Positions 4,056 to 11,619 of a stretch of DNA of 14,833 nt are shown one piece after another. Both the position numbers and the translations under genes were made by a program. The stretch covers positions 1-14,833 of the forward strand of contig JAPPMR010000787.1 in the NCBI GenBank assembly GCA_028818995.1. Direction: 5' to 3'. The notes beneath the pieces are model-generated. The model was not told the DNA's origin, searched no databases, and saw only the letters and a list, made by a program, of their open reading frames with translations. How positions within the stretch are numbered: the first letter of the stretch is position 1; each line of letters begins with the position of its first letter. This stretch comes from Candidatus Poribacteria bacterium. GTDB lineage: Bacteria; Poribacteria; WGA-4E; WGA-3G.

Positions 4056-4085
4056 TTGACTTTTAGAAGTGTTTTGTGTTATACT
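4056..4085 (+). promoter_or_regulatory. Promoter of tnpB
   Basis: TTGACT (4056-4061) and TATACT (4080-4085) are 18 bp apart. The predicted RNA starts near 4092 and immediately contains a nested hairpin: GACTC (4095-4099)/GAGTC (4140-4144) around GTGCTATC (4110-4117)/GATAGCAC (4130-4137). It then reaches the ribosome site and ATG at 4166. Confidence 0.6.
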
Positions 4086-4165
4086 TGTAGAACTGACTCA
4101 GTGGTGGGTGTGCTATCACCTGCCACACCGATAGCACGGGAGTCAGCAACCTACGGGAGTCAGAA

Positions 4166-5242
4166 ATGCCCTACAAAACACATAAAATCACCTTAGATCT
4201 GACTTTTAAGCAACGTCATTGGTTTGCTTCTCAATGTGGTTATGCGCGTTTTGCGTATAACCAAGCTTTAGCAGATTTCAAAGCAGGATTAGATCAAGAT
4301 AACTTCCAATCATGGCGAACACTCAATAACAACTTCAACAAGACAAAAAAGCGTTATGAGTGGACAAGTTCTCAAGATCAGCGTGCTGCCTTATATGCTA
4401 TCAACAATCTTGGCAAAGCGATTGTGAATTGGGTTGGCAAACGCGCGAAGTTCCCGAAGTTTAAGGGACGCGGAAGTCGTCAATCTTACACAACAGATGA
4501 GCAATCCGTGAGAGTTGAAGGTAAGAAAATAAAACTGCCCAAGATCGGATGGATAAAGATGTTTCAAGAGTTGCGTTTTGTTGGCAAGCTTATCAAGGTA
4601 ACGATCTCAAGGACAGCCCATCGTTGGTTTGTATCAATAACAGTAGACACAGAGGACACCAAAGCCGTTGACACCTCAACGCACCCTGTGATTGGTATTG
4701 ATGTCGGTATCAACACCTTAGCAACATGTTCAGATGGCAGTAAATATAAGAATCCGAGACCGCTCAAACGCTATGAGAAAAAGTTAGCAAGAGAGCAACG
4801 CAAATTAGGTCGCAAAGTCCGAAAATCTAATAACTGGTATAAACAGAAAGCACAAGTGGCACGTGTGCATTATAGGATAGCCTGCATTAGAGAAGATACA
4901 CACCACAAAGCAACTACGGATATTGTCAACCGTGCATCCGCTATCGGTATTGAAACGCTAAAGATAACGAACATGCTGAAGAATAAAAAACTGGCAAAGG
5001 CGTTATCCGATAGTGCGTTAGGCGGGTTTCTATCTAAACTCAAGGCAAAAGCAGAGGTGCGCGGCATTCCGATAACCGAAGCAGACCAGTTCTTTGCAAG
5101 TAGCAAAACCTGTAGCCACTGCGGACACAAAAAAGATGACTTGACACTAAAAGAAAGAGCGTATCAGTGTAGCCAATGTGACATCTCAATAGATAGGGAT
5201 GTCAACGCTGCAATAAACCTAAAACCAACTACCGTCGGATAG
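4166..5242 (+). CDS. tnpB: TnpB RNA-guided endonuclease
   Basis: This 358-residue protein is near full length for TnpB. The N-terminal part has the usual YKTHKITLDLT start and a QxGYARFAYNQAL helix. The RuvC-like nuclease motifs are complete: GIDVG with Asp179, IGIETLK with Glu263, and DRDVNAAIN with Asp345. A zinc ribbon lies between the last two (Cys316, Cys319, Cys335, Cys338). A GGGAG site eight bases before ATG 4166 supports the start. By family knowledge TnpB uses an RNA from its own 3' end (omega or reRNA) to cut DNA next to a short transposon-associated motif, which promotes retention of the element. All catalytic residues are present, so it may be active. The stop codon lies inside a small hairpin (5232-5246) that probably belongs to the RNA. 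Confidence 0.95.
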   Translation: MPYKTHKITLDLTFKQRHWFASQCGYARFAYNQALADFKAGLDQDNFQSWRTLNNNFNKTKKRYEWTSSQDQRAALYAINNLGKAIVNWVGKRAKFPKFKGRGSRQSYTTDEQSVRVEGKKIKLPKIGWIKMFQELRFVGKLIKVTISRTAHRWFVSITVDTEDTKAVDTSTHPVIGIDVGINTLATCSDGSKYKNPRPLKRYEKKLAREQRKLGRKVRKSNNWYKQKAQVARVHYRIACIREDTHHKATTDIVNRASAIGIETLKITNMLKNKKLAKALSDSALGGFLSKLKAKAEVRGIPITEADQFFASSKTCSHCGHKKDDLTLKERAYQCSQCDISIDRDVNAAINLKPTTVG

Positions 5243-5411: not shown

Positions 5412-6782
5412 ATGGAGAAACATTCACCCTTCAATTACAATCCCAAAGGCTTCCGTGCGTATGGGCAGATGTATGACCTATTCCATTCTAACGCGAGTGT
5501 GAAGATAGCAGGCGGCACCTACGATGCTGGCAAGACTTTTAGCTGCATCGCCTACATGGATATGCTGGCGCGTGAATTCCCCGGTGCCCGTATGAGTTTC
5601 ATCCATCGTAGTTTGAACAGGGTGCATCGCAACATTATTCCGACCTACGAAAAATATCTCGGCTACCGACCCACAAGACGAGATGACCCGAATCCGACAG
5701 CAATTACGCGTTTCGGTGGCGAACATCCCGATTTTTTTGAATACCACAACGGCACTCGCATCTATGTGAACGGGTTGGACAAACCGCAGAACCTGCTATC
5801 CGACTTTTTTGATGCGGCGTTTGTGAATCAGGCGGAGTTAGTGCCGTTTGATACATGGGACGAACTCACCGCTCGCGTCTCGGAACGCGCAGGCACTATG
5901 CCGATCGCTTTTCTGCTCGGTGATTGTAATCCGAGTGTACCGAACCACTGGATACGCCGGCAGACGAAGGCGGGCAAAATTGCTTATTTTAAGATGTCGT
6001 TCCGTGATAACCCTGAAATCTACAATCAACAAACAGGCGAGTTGACGGAGAATGGTCGGCGGCGCGTTGAACGGCTCCAGAACCTTGAAGGATTACGGTA
6101 TAAACGTGGCTACGAAGGCGAATGGTGTTCGGGTGAAGGTCTGGTATTCGAGACATTTCAGCCAGAGGTGCATATCATTGACAACTTCACGATTTCGCCG
6201 CGCTGGGCGCGGTATCTCAGCATAGATTGGGGGTTTCGCAATCCTGCCAGCTGTATCTGGTGGGCACGCTCCCCTGATGACCGCATTTATGCCTACAAAG
6301 AGATATACAAAACGAAGTTGACAAAACCCGAACTGATACGGTTGATAAAGCAGAATTGTGATGCAACGGACAGAATTCAGTATGCTGCGGTAGACAGCGC
6401 GGATCAGGATGCGATTGAACAACTACAACGCGCGGGTTTCCGTGTGAACGAACCGAAAAAGTCGCGCGCCACACAGATTGACGCTATCAAGGAACGGCTA
6501 AAAGTTGACGAGACAGGTGAACCTGCGCTCTTTTTCCTGCGGGATAGGCTTGTGCATCCACCGGACGAGGATTTGAAGGATGCATATCGTGCTGTTGAGG
6601 TTACGGATGAGTTTTTGAGTTGCACCTACGATGAGAAACTACGCGGCACACATAAGGACGATGAGGCGATCAAAGGTGATAATCACGGGATTGATAGCAC
6701 CGCATATCTTATATTGAGTTTACAGAGGCGGCGACGCATCGGCAGTGGGCGTGTTGTGCATGGTAGGGTACAGATGCGGTAG
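5412..6782 (+). CDS. terL: Phage terminase large subunit (PBSX/Terminase_3-like)
   Basis: This 456-residue protein has the two-domain layout of DNA-packaging motors. The ATPase domain has a variant P-loop, GGTYDAGKT (residues 34-42), a Walker B-like segment AAFVNQAEL with Glu142, and the LLGDCNPSVPNHW motif near residues 168-180. The C-terminal RNase H-fold nuclease shows SIDWGF (Asp272), AVDSAD (Asp328) and HGIDSTAY (Asp428), the usual metal-binding acidic residues. In phages it cuts concatemeric DNA and pumps it into the procapsid. Here it stands alone: no small terminase, portal, protease or capsid gene is in the window. The TnpB right end lies about 40 bp upstream, and a REP/minisatellite block begins 11 bp downstream. 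The start is weak: no good ribosome site lies close to ATG 5412. It could be a prophage remnant or a domesticated gene. Confidence 0.9.
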   Translation: MEKHSPFNYNPKGFRAYGQMYDLFHSNASVKIAGGTYDAGKTFSCIAYMDMLAREFPGARMSFIHRSLNRVHRNIIPTYEKYLGYRPTRRDDPNPTAITRFGGEHPDFFEYHNGTRIYVNGLDKPQNLLSDFFDAAFVNQAELVPFDTWDELTARVSERAGTMPIAFLLGDCNPSVPNHWIRRQTKAGKIAYFKMSFRDNPEIYNQQTGELTENGRRRVERLQNLEGLRYKRGYEGEWCSGEGLVFETFQPEVHIIDNFTISPRWARYLSIDWGFRNPASCIWWARSPDDRIYAYKEIYKTKLTKPELIRLIKQNCDATDRIQYAAVDSADQDAIEQLQRAGFRVNEPKKSRATQIDAIKERLKVDETGEPALFFLRDRLVHPPDEDLKDAYRAVEVTDEFLSCTYDEKLRGTHKDDEAIKGDNHGIDSTAYLILSLQRRRRIGSGRVVHGRVQMR

Positions 6783-8535: not shown

Positions 8536-8704
8536 GTAGGTCGGGTAGAGCAACGCGACACCCGACAGAATAGTATATCAGCGCATACATGTCGGGTGTC
8601 GTAAACTCTACCCGACCTACGCACTGTATACACGTATAAATGTATACACGTATAAATGTATACACGTATAAATGTATACACGTATAAATGTATACACGTA
8701 TACA
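8536..8704. repeat. 85-bp REP palindrome plus 16-bp minisatellite, copy B
   Basis: GTAGGTCGGGTAGAG (8536-8550) pairs perfectly with CTCTACCCGACCTAC (8606-8620). Inside, CGACACCCGAC (8556-8566) pairs with GTCGGGTGTCG (8591-8601), leaving a 24-nt loop. Four complete TATACACGTATAAATG units follow (8627-8690), plus a partial unit to 8704. All units differ from copy A by the same base (AAATG against AAAGG). Related single hairpins are at 6798-6824 and 10079-10105. Confidence 0.9.
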
Positions 8705-8731
8705 CAGGTTGCGAATAATTCCGATTCAAAC

Positions 8732-9282: not shown

Positions 9283-9428
9283 CATAACCTCCTCTGTAAT
9301 AAGTCATTACAAGGTGTTTGTTTATGTGCATACCGTTTTATAGATGGGCAAGACACGACGAGGGGAGATGTCGTGCGCTACCAAATGAGTAACTTTAGTA
9401 TTACATTTTTTGAGTTATGTGTCAAATT

Positions 9429-9593
9429 TTATAATGACTGCCTTTCATCATCCTGCGGCGTATGGAAAGTTTTCGGTTGCTTTTCAGCAGATTCAGGCTT
9501 CTGCGGTTTCAAAACAGCCGGATAATTTTTGATAAGTTCTGCATACGCGACGCGTTCATCATCTTCAGGAAACGAAAAAAGTTGATTTTTCAT
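9429..9593 (-). CDS. Possible 54-residue protein with duplicated DDER motif
   Basis: An open frame of 54 codons starts at ATG 9593, with GGGGAAG about 11 bases upstream, and stops at TAA 9429-9431. The product begins MKNQLFSFPEDDERVAYAEL and ends HTPQDDERQSL, so a P-x-DDER motif occurs near both ends. The middle is Lys/Pro/Glu-rich. It is hydrophilic with no signal or membrane segment. I do not recognise it. Coding-like composition and a usable start favour a real small gene or the remnant of a longer one; its size keeps confidence low. Confidence 0.4.
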   Translation of the reverse strand: MKNQLFSFPEDDERVAYAELIKNYPAVLKPQKPESAEKQPKTFHTPQDDERQSL

Positions 9594-9628
9594 TTGCACA
9601 TTACTTCCCCATGTGTTATAATATATTT

Positions 9629-9653
9629 AAATGTTAATAATAATATAACATTT
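9629..9653. other. AT-rich hairpin before the structured-RNA promoter
   Basis: AAATGTTA (9629-9636) pairs with TAACATTT (9646-9653) around ATAATAATA. Bases 9655-9725 are long T and A runs that could act as an UP-like or curved DNA tract for the promoter at 9726. No gene was seen in 9594-9725. Confidence 0.4.
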
Positions 9654-9725
9654 ATCTATATATTTTACAAATTTTTTCGTTTTTTTAGCAATTTTAAGGA
9701 AAAAAGCACTTTTTTGAAAAAATAT

Positions 9726-9755
9726 TTGACATTTTTTTGTAATTTGTGGTATACT
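9726..9755 (+). promoter_or_regulatory. Strong sigma70 promoter of the structured RNA
   Basis: A perfect TTGACA (9726-9731) and TATACT (9750-9755) are separated by 18 bp, after a long AT tract. The expected start, 6-7 bases after the -10 box, falls at 9761-9762, the first base of an 8-bp closing stem. No protein gene follows for over 800 bases. Confidence 0.7.
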
Positions 9756-9761
9756 ATTATC

Positions 9762-9836
9762 GCATCGTTGGTAGAGAGGTTCAGCCTCGCCGCTTGGCGA
9801 GGTCTCTACCCACACCGCCTGAACCGGGAACGATGC
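9762..9836 (+). ncRNA. 75-nt pseudoknotted RNA, class not recognised
   Basis: Four perfect helices account for 60 of the 75 bases: GCATCGTT/AACGATGC (9762-9769 with 9829-9836); GGTAGAGA/TCTCTACC (9770-9777 with 9803-9810); CCTCGCC/GGCGAGG (9785-9791 with 9796-9802, GCTT loop); and a crossing helix GGTTCAG/CTGAACC (9778-9784 with 9819-9825), which makes a pseudoknot. Helices abut without gaps at 9769/9770, 9777/9778, 9784/9785 and 9802/9803, so they could stack. An alternative partner for 9761-9767 exists at 9846-9852 (CGATGCG). I do not match it to tRNA or a known riboswitch. It is not followed by a coding region, so it is probably a free small RNA or part of a replication-control region. Confidence 0.55.
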
Positions 9837-10124
9837 TATACAATGCGATGCGAACCACAGATACAAATTGTTCACCGAACGAAGCCGGGGAACAGTGTCA
9901 AAAAAATAGAGTGTAGTCGATTTGTTGCTGGATATGCATTTTTTAGGCGAGTGCCTAATTGCATTTGTGTTATAGGTTTATTGCAATTGTAGTCGAATTG
10001 CATTTATTTATGGGAGGAATTGGGAACAAACTTGCATAGGATGGCTTACTTGGATAGGTTAGGTAAGTTATATCGTCCGTCGGGTGTCGCGTTGTTCTAC
10101 CCGACATGAACCAAACTGTGGTAA
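9837..10124. other. Non-coding stretch with hairpins and a REP copy
   Basis: No convincing gene was found. Visible stems are ATGCA/TGCAT enclosing TAGGC/GCCTA (9934-9964), TGCAATT/AATTGCA (9982-10002) and the REP hairpin GTCGGGT/ACCCGAC (10079-10105). The word TGTAGTCGAWTTG occurs twice (about 9912 and 9988). There is no plus-strand U-tract that would clearly end the RNA starting at 9762. Confidence 0.45.
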
Positions 10125-10304
10125 CCAATAACAGCCGCACAAAATCGCACGGCTGTTATTGGCAAATTATTACTAACATTCGCTGTACATTAGCGAAAGG
10201 AATTATAACAGAAGTCTCCACTCTGTTATCAAACACTGTTAAGCCAAGTCCGTCTCTAATGCAAAGTTCAGAAAACTTTGCCAAACTTCGCAATCTACAG
10301 TGTT
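10125..10304. other. Array of five perfect hairpins, control-region-like
   Basis: In order: CCAATAACAGCCG/CGGCTGTTATTGG (10125-10137 with 10150-10162, 13 bp); TTCGCT/AGCGAA (10179-10197); ATAACAGA/TCTGTTAT (10205-10229); and AACACTGT/ACAGTGTT (10232-10304), enclosing GCAAAGTT/AACTTTGC (10261-10281). The stems are perfect and nearly contiguous. Part of the array (10163-10208) resembles the sequence just before the gene at 10618, including AAGGAATTATAA, with ACA in place of the start codon. No coding potential was seen. Confidence 0.6.
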
Positions 10305-10370
10305 CACTTTATATTATAGCATATATTTCAATTCTATGCAAGTTTGATTTATTTTTTCAACATTGTAATT

Positions 10371-10402
10371 TTGTTGTTGTTTTTTCTAAAATAACGTATA
10401 AT
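10371..10402 (+). promoter_or_regulatory. Promoter of the tandem winged-helix gene
   Basis: TATAAT (10397-10402) is preceded by TTGTTG at 10374-10379 with a 17-bp spacer (an overlapping TTGTTG starts at 10371). The predicted start at about 10409 coincides with the first base of the structured leader. Confidence 0.6.
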
Positions 10403-10408
10403 TACTAT

Positions 10409-10617
10409 TAAACCGTGAGGAGGCGGGTAGTCGGGGTAGTTCTCTACTACCTTCCGCCTCCCCAACTGACTATTGGGTCCCAACTGACAATTGGGTTCGG
10501 TTTATACGATTATCACGCCGCTACCAATTAGGAAGTGGCAACACGGTTTTATACCAAATTATTGCTAATGTAAGTGTAGATTTTCAATGTACACTAAGAG
10601 CAGAAGAAGGAATTATA
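10409..10617 (+). promoter_or_regulatory. Structured 5' leader with multi-branched fold
   Basis: TAAACCG (10409-10415) pairs with CGGTTTA (10498-10504), closing a junction with three arms. Arm 1 is GGAGGCGG/CCGCCTCC (10419-10426 with 10454-10461), continued by GGTAGT/ACTACC (10435-10440 with 10446-10451). Arms 2 and 3 are an 18-bp tandem duplication with 17 of 18 bases equal, each CCCAA-7 nt-TTGGG (10461-10477, 10479-10495). AAACCGTG (10410-10417) can instead pair with CACGGTTT (10542-10549), so two exclusive folds exist. Then come GCCGCT/AGTGGC (about 10517-10539), AGTGTA/TACACT (10573-10595), AGAAGGA and the ATG. This looks like a cis-regulatory leader or replication-control RNA. The ligand is unknown and no known riboswitch core was recognised. 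Confidence 0.55.
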
Positions 10618-11619
10618 ATGAAAAATAAAATTAAGGTTTCTACGTTACAGGTCCCCTCAGGCCCTGGCAGTATTATTTCAAGTTTAGGTTTACGTCAAGT
10701 GAAACCCCTTGCTGCGATGACAGCACTCACGTTGAACTATCGCAGTAATTGGGACGAAGGACGCACATGGTGGACATCGGATCGTAAGTTAGCCGATCTG
10801 ATGGGTGCTTCTCACCGATATACACGCGATGCGCTGAAAGAACTCACAGGTTGGGTTACGCGCGTCAAACAGGGCGTGAAGGGAAGCATCTACCAACTCA
10901 CACATCATCTGCGCGAACCCCAAGATGTTCCCACCGACAAACACGGTAACCCCCTCAAATTTGCCATCCCGCGTGGCAAAGACGGACCCTTTGAAAAAAT
11001 GTTTGCGGGTGAAATCAGTTGGAAAGCGTGTCTCATCTGGATACTGCTCAAAGTGCATTCAGATTTTCAGACGGGCAAGACGCACCCGATAACAATGGAC
11101 TCGCTCGCGTTATGGTCCAGGTTCGGTAAGGACACCGTCTGCGAAGCGATAGGCGAGCTGGAAAAGGCAGGGCTATTAGAGCGGTTGTCAAAACCGCACG
11201 AAAAATCTGTTTTTCAGCTGTATCCCAAGCCCCCCGAAAAGCGTCCCGTGAGTCGTCCTCCGAAGAAAAAACGCAAACAGCGAAAAACCTTTATGGACAT
11301 GCGCACCGATGAGAAGCATTGTTACAGTTTCAACGAGAAATATCGGTGTAATTTGGACACAGGACATATTGAGGTGAGAGAACGACATGGGCGAGGACGG
11401 TGGCACCGTCTAAAAGATCGGGAACGGCATCTCGTGCCGAAACCGATTATGGAAGCGTTTGACAACATGATCGCCGAAGCATCGAAAATTCGGATGCATC
11501 TCCGCCAGGCGCTCGGTCTCGCTGGTTCTGATACCGCACACCTTAGTTCTGATAACGCACGCGACGGTTCTGATAACGCACAGCATGAATTTTTAAGCTC
11601 GCTTCAGCTTAGGCTGTGA
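10618..11619 (+). CDS. Tandem winged-helix DNA-binding protein, possible replication initiator
   Basis: This 333-residue protein shows two helix-turn-helix units. The first is near residues 52-96 (RKLADLMGASHRYTRDALKEL then a wing with GSIYQLT). The second is near 157-202 (MDSLALWSRFGKDTVCEAIGELEKAGLLERL then KSVFQLYP). A strongly basic linker follows (PPKKKRKQRK, about 214-223), then an Arg/His-rich region and a C-terminal helix with IRMHLRQAL. The tail contains three S-D-x-A repeats from a short DNA duplication. There are no catalytic motifs. The architecture resembles phage or plasmid replication initiators and MarR/DnaD-like regulators. The structured leader before it and the AT-rich palindromes after it favour a replicon role, as inference only. 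The start at 10618 is supported by AGAAGGA. Confidence 0.7.
   Translation: MKNKIKVSTLQVPSGPGSIISSLGLRQVKPLAAMTALTLNYRSNWDEGRTWWTSDRKLADLMGASHRYTRDALKELTGWVTRVKQGVKGSIYQLTHHLREPQDVPTDKHGNPLKFAIPRGKDGPFEKMFAGEISWKACLIWILLKVHSDFQTGKTHPITMDSLALWSRFGKDTVCEAIGELEKAGLLERLSKPHEKSVFQLYPKPPEKRPVSRPPKKKRKQRKTFMDMRTDEKHCYSFNEKYRCNLDTGHIEVRERHGRGRWHRLKDRERHLVPKPIMEAFDNMIAEASKIRMHLRQALGLAGSDTAHLSSDNARDGSDNAQHEFLSSLQLRL

Follow-up and report, generated by a model that had tools for sequence, protein, structure and literature searches.

In translational riboswitches with a switching closing helix, the closing strand is common to an anti-sequestering and a sequestering helix. TnpB elements carry an omega RNA, which lies at the 3' end of tnpB, and HDV-like ribozymes have the helix order P1, P2, P3, P3', P1', P2' (in agreement with the passages cited next) and a catalytic C in the unpaired J4/2. 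These ribozymes are built from the stacks P1-P1.1-P4 and P2-P3 with a core of L3 and J4/2, and a construct without the P1-P2 spacer had no activity, according to passages of one paper (PMC4908430). In Salmonella, a stem-loop in the 5' UTR of IS200 tnpA sequesters the ribosome-binding site of this gene, as described in a part of PMC12594629.

Here, a structured RNA is described from contig JAPPMR010000787.1 of a Candidatus Poribacteria bacterium (assembly GCA_028818995.1); the window is the whole stretch of DNA that was analysed, 14,833 nt in length. An earlier note on this DNA had described a promoter, four perfect helices of 8, 8, 7 and 7 bp within 9762-9836 and an alternative partner for the outer stem at 9846-9852, and all of these lie where it had placed them (Table 1). 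With moderate confidence, the RNA is read as a mobile two-state 5' translational leader of Poribacteria TnpB elements, present at this place without its gene and re-used elsewhere.

Table 1. Features of the window, all on the forward (+) strand.
Feature	Position	Partner strand or parts	Remarks
Sigma70-type promoter TTGACA-18-TATACT	9726..9755	TTGACA 9726-9731, TATACT 9750-9755	Read from sequence
P0 5' strand	9762..9769	9829-9836, or 9846-9852 for 9761-9767	At predicted +1
P1 5' strand GGUAGAGA	9770..9777	3' strand 9803..9810, 8 bp	Most conserved part; pair statistics over homologues
P2 5' strand, crossing helix	9778..9784	3' strand 9819..9825, 7 bp	Crosses P1
P3 hairpin	9785..9802	9785-9791/9796-9802, 7 bp	Loop GCUU
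P4 hairpin	9815..9827	P2 3' strand inside	Pair counts over homologues
P0', first partner of P0	9829..9836	8 bp	Pair statistics over homologues
P0'', second competing partner of P0	9846..9852	ATG 9848-9850 inside
Short frame, 22 codons (MRTTDTNCSPNEAGEQCQKNRV)	9848..9916		Compared by eye with tnpB starts
Promoter of second leader, TTGACT-18-TATACT	4056..4085
P3-less leader of window tnpB	4093..4163	P0 4093-4099, P0' 4140-4146, P0'' 4157-4163
P3-less leader, inner helices		P1 4101-4109/4118-4126, P2 4110-4117/4130-4137	P1 with one U-G and one G-U
tnpB, intact	4166..5242		OrfB_IS605 and Cas12f1-like TNB
Third, weaker candidate leader	10409..10549	P0 10409-10415, P0' 10498-10504, P0'' 10542-10549
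Third candidate, inner helices		P1 10419-10426/10454-10461, P2 10428-10434/10466-10472, P3

The RNA and related elements in the window

The fold of 9726-9870 has a z of -5.6, which none of 200 shuffles equalled. On the forward strand of the window, a topology descriptor of P0, P1, P2 and P3 matches the place at 9762 only, and on the reverse strand it matches a tandem repeat at 8625-8712 and one A/T-only site without P3. In 60 shuffled windows, the same descriptor found 0.22 loci of any kind and 0.03 P3-bearing loci per window, a P3-bearing match occurring in 2 of the 60. The repeat at 8625-8712 is made of TGTATACACGTATAAA units. P4 of the copy at 9762 consists of CC/GG only, because P2 takes the third pair. 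When folds were forced without P2, this copy reached -38.7 with P0' and -41.4 with P0''.

The frame that opens at the ATG in P0'' of this copy, ATGCGAACCACAGATACAAAT, resembles the starts of tnpB genes behind other copies, such as ATGCGAACCTATAAATATAAG in L040, and is a probable relic of a tnpB start, judged from its letters. By this likeness, the copy at 9762 looks like a leader whose gene has been lost. The earlier claim that no protein gene follows holds for the copy at 9762 only; behind other copies, tnpB genes are found.

The intact tnpB of the window has a second, P3-less leader, in which P0'' overlaps a Shine-Dalgarno-like GGGAG. The arrangement of P0, P0' and P0'' was found here by script (0 of 300 shuffles), and the fold has a z of -2.4, with 7 of 200 shuffles as good. 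The third candidate lies upstream of a replication-initiator-like gene at 10618 and has a z of -4.4 (0 of 200 shuffles); its P4/P2' hairpin occurs twice in tandem (18 nt), and in comparison with L003, a related locus described below, P0:P0'' and P1 are kept and P2 is not. A phage-type terminase large subunit (PHROG) is encoded at 5412-6782, beside the tnpB genes at 4166 and 14009, and the window thus seems to contain much mobile or prophage DNA.

Discovery and distribution of the RNA family

The gene at 10618 was the entry point to the relatives of the RNA: against genome contigs it matched two Poribacteria loci, and against viral contigs it gave no match. Around the RNA, the larger blocks that L003 shares with the window are 90-98% identical, the RNA itself being strongly diverged with its helices kept. 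By eye, the inner end of P2 goes from CAG/CUG to CC/GG between the window and L003, and P0 and both its partners have changed together; these compensatory differences suggest that the RNA itself is still kept. A DNA search of two Poribacteria genomes returned paralogues with entirely different P2 and P0. A model (R1), built from the window copy and three paralogues, contained no helices other than P0, P1 and P3, which kept P2 and P4 as independent tests.

In the two genomes, R1 gave 8 and 4 matches at E<=1, and at E<=0.1 it had matches in 58 of the 84 genomes that make up the Poribacteria phylum set. A search with R2 over 386 'relatives' matched 58 at E<=1e-4, 57 of them within the 84-genome set and one (G154) outside it. 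The latter is a 1.7-Mb genome with three copies (L286-L288) and tnpB behind each. The copies that were fetched are the best-scoring ones and no random draw.

Viral DNA holds the family as well. The pattern GGTCTCTACC-N-ACCGA was found in at least 120 viral stretches, and among 80 viral contigs tested, 3 hold members, two of which duplicate copies from Poribacteria genomes (L092 as L248, L109 as L057). The pattern GGTAGAGAGGTTCAGCC had two matches in viral contigs, neither with the structure. Among the best 20 of 69 matches in phage and plasmid DNA, the A/T-rich promoter part is what is covered, with one weak match reaching into P0/P1.

The RNA family is absent from every catalogue searched, as the earlier note had anticipated in calling it an RNA of no recognised class. 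Rfam 15 gave no family at the gathering score in the window, four sub-threshold matches in 9300-10620 at E<=10, none of them on 9762-9852, and no match at E<=1 on the RNA of ten other loci; membership in a known Rfam class was rejected on this basis. In the open-access literature searched, no report of the family was found, which leaves its absence in print unproven. Rfam presumably holds motif names for IS605-orfB, and no paper with this motif phrase was found in the open-access literature.

Conserved structure

The structure is real, its fold being conserved with covariation. The domain runs in the order P0 (8 bp), P1 (8 bp, GGUAGAGA/UCUCUACC), P2 5' strand, P3, P1', a short linker, P4 and P0'; the loop of P3 mostly has four bases and that of P4 is formed by the P2 3' strand. 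Among 74 distinct rows from 75 copies, 96.3% of the cells were paired, against 76.0% when shuffled and 36-41% when slid. Over the 74 distinct rows, two-sided changes were observed in all five helices, and P2 and P4 were paired in 95.3% and 92.8% of the cells, respectively, with P4 outside the model. The covariance-model search of related genomes, which had been put forward as a check, has thereby yielded homologues with two-sided changes in every helix.

When the set was widened to 101 matches from 99 loci, 96.7% of the cells were paired in the four-helix structure, P2 being still excluded, and P4, now part of the model, reached 94.6%; P3 was paired in 97.4% of the cells over 96 distinct rows. 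P2, which is in neither model, forms 7 of 7 pairs in 82 of 93 copies, 6 of 7 in 6 and fewer in 5, whereas with strands swapped among copies 7 of 7 were formed in 4.8 copies on average and in 12 at most. Among these 93 copies, 45 different P2 sequences occur; the rows are related, so such counts are not independent events, and it was P0, P1 and P3, never P2, that guided the alignments. The 93 exclude two duplicates and also six rows that lack a P2 strand of 7 nt, one of which is L003 with its 6-bp P2. G-U cells outnumber A-C cells by 122 to 40 over all 101 rows, from which the sense strand is taken to be the folded one.

Because P1 directly adjoins P2 and little linker separates P1 from P4, one molecule may be unable to form P1, P2 and P4 together; either P4 would open or P2 would form between molecules. 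In L031 (1501-1571), the P2 5' strand has been lost exactly and P1 and P3 are fused, with P4 and its loop remaining.

Promoter and the two partners of P0

A promoter scoring at least 9 of 12 lies upstream of 86 of 93 copies, compared with 13% of shuffles. In 69 of these 86 good-promoter copies, P0 starts 6-8 nt past the -10 box, at about +1, in line with the start that had been predicted on the first base of the closing stem. For the promoter and energy counts, eight of the 101 rows were dropped, and the promoter count also excludes rows with less than 60 nt upstream.

The alternative partner of the outer stem, also pointed out in the earlier note, is conserved and has become the most telling feature of the family, from which we infer the exchange itself. 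In most non-tandem copies, the P0 3' strand recurs as P0''. Seven or more exact bases of it are present in 35 of 51 non-tandem copies (shuffled mean 4.0), compared with 0 of 21 copies from tandem arrays, and at least 6 in 31 of 38 copies with tnpB and 39 of 58 without. When G-U pairs are allowed, P0:P0'' reaches at least 7 of 8 pairs in 27 of 37 tnpB copies and in 44 of 52 copies that lack tnpB (solo copies), against 14.2 (maximum 20) and 20.5 (maximum 31), respectively, with P0 swapped. For this count, five of the 101 rows with less than 200 nt downstream were dropped together with seven others (two duplicates, two secondary, three partial).

In forced folds without P2, the pairing with P0' is on average better than that with P0''. 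The energy gap between the two states has a median of 0.3 kcal/mol in 26 tnpB copies (mean +1.3, range -4.8 to +9.5) and of 1.6 kcal/mol in 44 solo copies (mean +2.0, range -4.8 to +12.2), copies with fewer than 7 pairs in P0'' or fewer than 6 in P0' being excluded. The wide range means that some copies are not finely balanced, which counts against a two-state leader.

Leaders before tnpB genes

There are 96 copies with 200 nt or more of downstream DNA, and behind 38 of them tblastn found tnpB sequence, some of it broken. In many copies, a start codon in or just behind P0'' opens the TnpB gene, and nine such proteins tested in Pfam all have the OrfB_IS605 and Cas12f1-like TNB domains. One strand with two mutually exclusive partners, one of them on the start codon or Shine-Dalgarno region (the P0/P0'/P0'' triple), was found in 12 of 15 Poribacteria tnpB genes, nine of which had been chosen for carrying a leader, which biases this set. 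In these triples, P0'' starts at -14 to +3 of the start codon, within the -32 to +6 that the script allowed, and 0-2 of 300 shuffles yield an equal length. A less biased set came from a Pfam scan of two genomes with 29 TNB-domain matches, of which eight are full-length (at least 368 aa from the ATG) with at least 200 nt upstream. The triple is present in 4 of these 8 (L205, L213, L215, L217); the others reach 5 bases (L208), are alike by eye only (L221), have none (L210) or have none of at least 6 (L228). Two further copies, L283 and L261, have a full tnpB, yet their P0'' has only 5 and 4 exact bases, which speaks against a two-state leader in these cases.

Among twelve plasmid tnpB genes of other groups (Rhodothermus, Geoalkalibacter, Bacteroides, Helicobacter, Campylobacter, two cyanobacteria, Acidiphilium, E. 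coli, Enterococcus, Marinobacter and Streptomyces), the triple was found in one, with 11 of 300 shuffles as good. Beside one leader-tnpB copy, a tmRNA match and an adjacent sub-threshold group I intron match were observed (L079:1814-2761).

Copies without tnpB

No tnpB was found behind 58 of the 96 copies, which counts against a two-state leader of TnpB elements. A same-strand ATG frame of at least 80 aa follows within 350 nt in 44 of these 58 solo copies and within 150 nt in 30, compared with 2 of 58 for shuffled downstream DNA. P0'' of solo copies usually lies away from the start of the next long gene, so it has another role there (perhaps on a short upstream frame) or is a leftover. Many tnpB-less copies keep P0'' and precede other genes, and the cassette therefore seems to be re-used by the host.

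Pfam was searched with 30 proteins from behind solo copies, and eight of these act on DNA or are phage-like: two GIY-YIG, MvaI/BcnI, a marginal Mrr/NOV_C, DUF4268, N6_N4_Mtase, a DDE transposase and Gp157, five of which start 150-515 nt downstream. The other 22 comprise trypsin-like proteins (2), weak metallopeptidase or dockerin matches (2), a GTPase, an oxidoreductase, a weak HTH match and 15 proteins without family or with weak coiled-coil matches only. PADLOC profiles concur for the methylase, the MvaI-like, the Mrr-like (TmtA) and the DUF4268 protein (PDC-S11) and for one of the two GIY-YIG proteins. Restriction, methylase or GIY-YIG nuclease genes lie directly or some hundred bases downstream of L038, L055, L080, L041, L258 and L257. 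In the GIY-YIG copies L041, L044, L161 and L248, P0'' is kept with its ATG changed to ATA and the matching base present in P0, which is a point against a two-state leader.

Tandem arrays of two or three copies (L065-L072), with a spacing of about 84 nt and similar promoters, occur in eight genomes and have no P0'', which likewise argues against a two-state leader. Several of them adjoin a similar membrane-protein-like gene. These arrays are possibly a domesticated small RNA.

Proposed mechanism and alternative explanations

In the proposed mechanism, transcription would begin at P0 and the leader would fold into P1-P3, with P2 crossing to the loop of the P4 hairpin and P0 closing the domain. 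The P0 5' strand could then pick P0', directly behind the domain, or P0'', further on. Pairing with P0' would leave the initiation region free (ON). In tnpB copies with a clear P0'', which there lies on the start codon or Shine-Dalgarno region, pairing with P0'' would cover this region (OFF). The folding or binding of the pseudoknotted domain would presumably decide between the partners, and the exchange of P0' and P0'' would in this model control translation.

Several of the observations above could also be given another meaning. The promoter of its own before 86 of 93 copies, the 58 of 96 copies without tnpB and the tandem arrays of two or three copies without P0'' would suit a stand-alone small RNA that acts in trans or as a decoy, with P0'' a mere leftover; 5'tnpA of IS200 gives rise, by processing, to a small RNA with other genes as its targets, according to a part of PMC12594629. 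However, P0'' tracks P0 in solo copies too (44 of 52 against 20.5 swapped), frames of at least 80 aa follow 44 of the 58 solo copies within 350 nt against 2 when shuffled, and no terminator-like U run was seen past P0'' in the copies inspected by eye, and this explanation is considered unlikely. The leader could instead be a static 5' structure that protects or stabilises the mRNA end, in which P0'' serves as a spare partner and nothing switches. The 5' end would then be helical at all times, since P0 lies at about +1 and either partner keeps it paired; the pairing is also kept without a start codon in P0'', as in the GIY-YIG copies. The position of P0'' on the start codon or Shine-Dalgarno region of tnpB copies is left unexplained by such a structure, which we regard as quite improbable.

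Covariation of the helices, and their place before tnpB sequence in 38 of 96 copies, would likewise be expected if the transposase recognised a hairpin of single-stranded DNA at the transposon end and no RNA device were involved. The fold sets in where transcription is predicted to start, P0'' coincides with the initiation region, and by eye L205, L217, L208, L221 and the window tnpB at 4166 have another hairpin (CCCC..GGGG or CCCAAG..CTTGGG) upstream of the promoter, the site expected for an end hairpin, all of which makes the DNA explanation highly unlikely. A minimal HDV-like self-cleaving ribozyme, cut before 9770, is hardly credible: the strand order P1, P2, P3, P3', P1', P2' is that of HDV, but no Rfam ribozyme matched, the place of the presumed cut is bridged by the conserved P0, the bases that would form J4/2 covary as P4 and the P1-P2 spacer is absent (the window copy has 0 nt there and alignment A4 no column), a spacer-less HDV-like ribozyme having tested inactive in the passages of PMC4908430.

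For the two-state leader, an extension can be drawn that is doubtful but of wider reach, namely a phylum-wide mobile cassette for the self-restraint of TnpB that has spread to other DNA-cutting or DNA-modifying genes and to ordinary host genes. If true, a selfish nuclease would be kept silent up to the arrival of a cellular signal or a certain transcript dose, and GIY-YIG homing-type, MvaI/BcnI-type, Mrr-like and DNA methylase genes would be restrained in the same way. P2 resembles a private 7-bp code of each copy or subfamily, so it might pair two transcripts of the same copy and count them. The restraint of TnpB nucleases, which are relatives of Cas12, is a live question, for which the leader offers a widespread and testable cis element. 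It combines strong covariation, an unusual fold and clear predicted mutants, adds a structured RNA family without Rfam 15 match from a phylum of mostly uncultured bacteria, and is a case of a mobile element's leader that is seemingly re-used before many host genes.

Comparison with known systems

GUUGGUAGAG, which we take to resemble a tRNA D arm, lies in an RNA of 75 nt. A tRNA-like RNA was rejected, with ARAGORN finding none in the window and GGUAGAG being paired in P1; on 30 loci, ARAGORN found one tRNA, away from the element. The leader and the omega RNA are both attached to the same kind of element and differ in position, the leader being 5' and the omega RNA 3' of tnpB. A mimic of the omega RNA that would bind TnpB was rejected: in three elements, the matches shared by the leader and the 3' region are all short, the best one having 9 bases (E 0.13).

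With HDV-like ribozymes, the leader has the order of the three inner helices in common, as had been noticed earlier, and to this it adds P0 and P4. The strand order stands; a kinship is not supported, because P1 and P2 are contiguous, the bases at the place of the catalytic C are in P4 and P0 lies outside the HDV fold. By eye, no counterpart of P1.1 and no unpaired J4/2 are visible in the leader, the J4/2 bases pairing as P4. Membership in the HDV-like ribozymes was rejected on the missing J1/2 spacer and on the pairing of the J4/2 bases in a covarying P4.

Translational riboswitches with a switching closing helix share with the leader a closed domain and a closing strand common to two competing helices. 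The leader, unlike them, is without known ligand, its P0, P2 and P3 sequences vary widely between copies, and no conserved loop resembling a ligand pocket was recognised in it. With the leader of IS200 tnpA, as described in a part of PMC12594629, it has in common that a structured 5' region of an IS200/IS605-family gene would cover the ribosome-binding site; the tnpA leader is a stable stem-loop in that description, whereas the Poribacteria leader has a pseudoknotted domain with two competing partners, stands before tnpB and belongs to another phylum.
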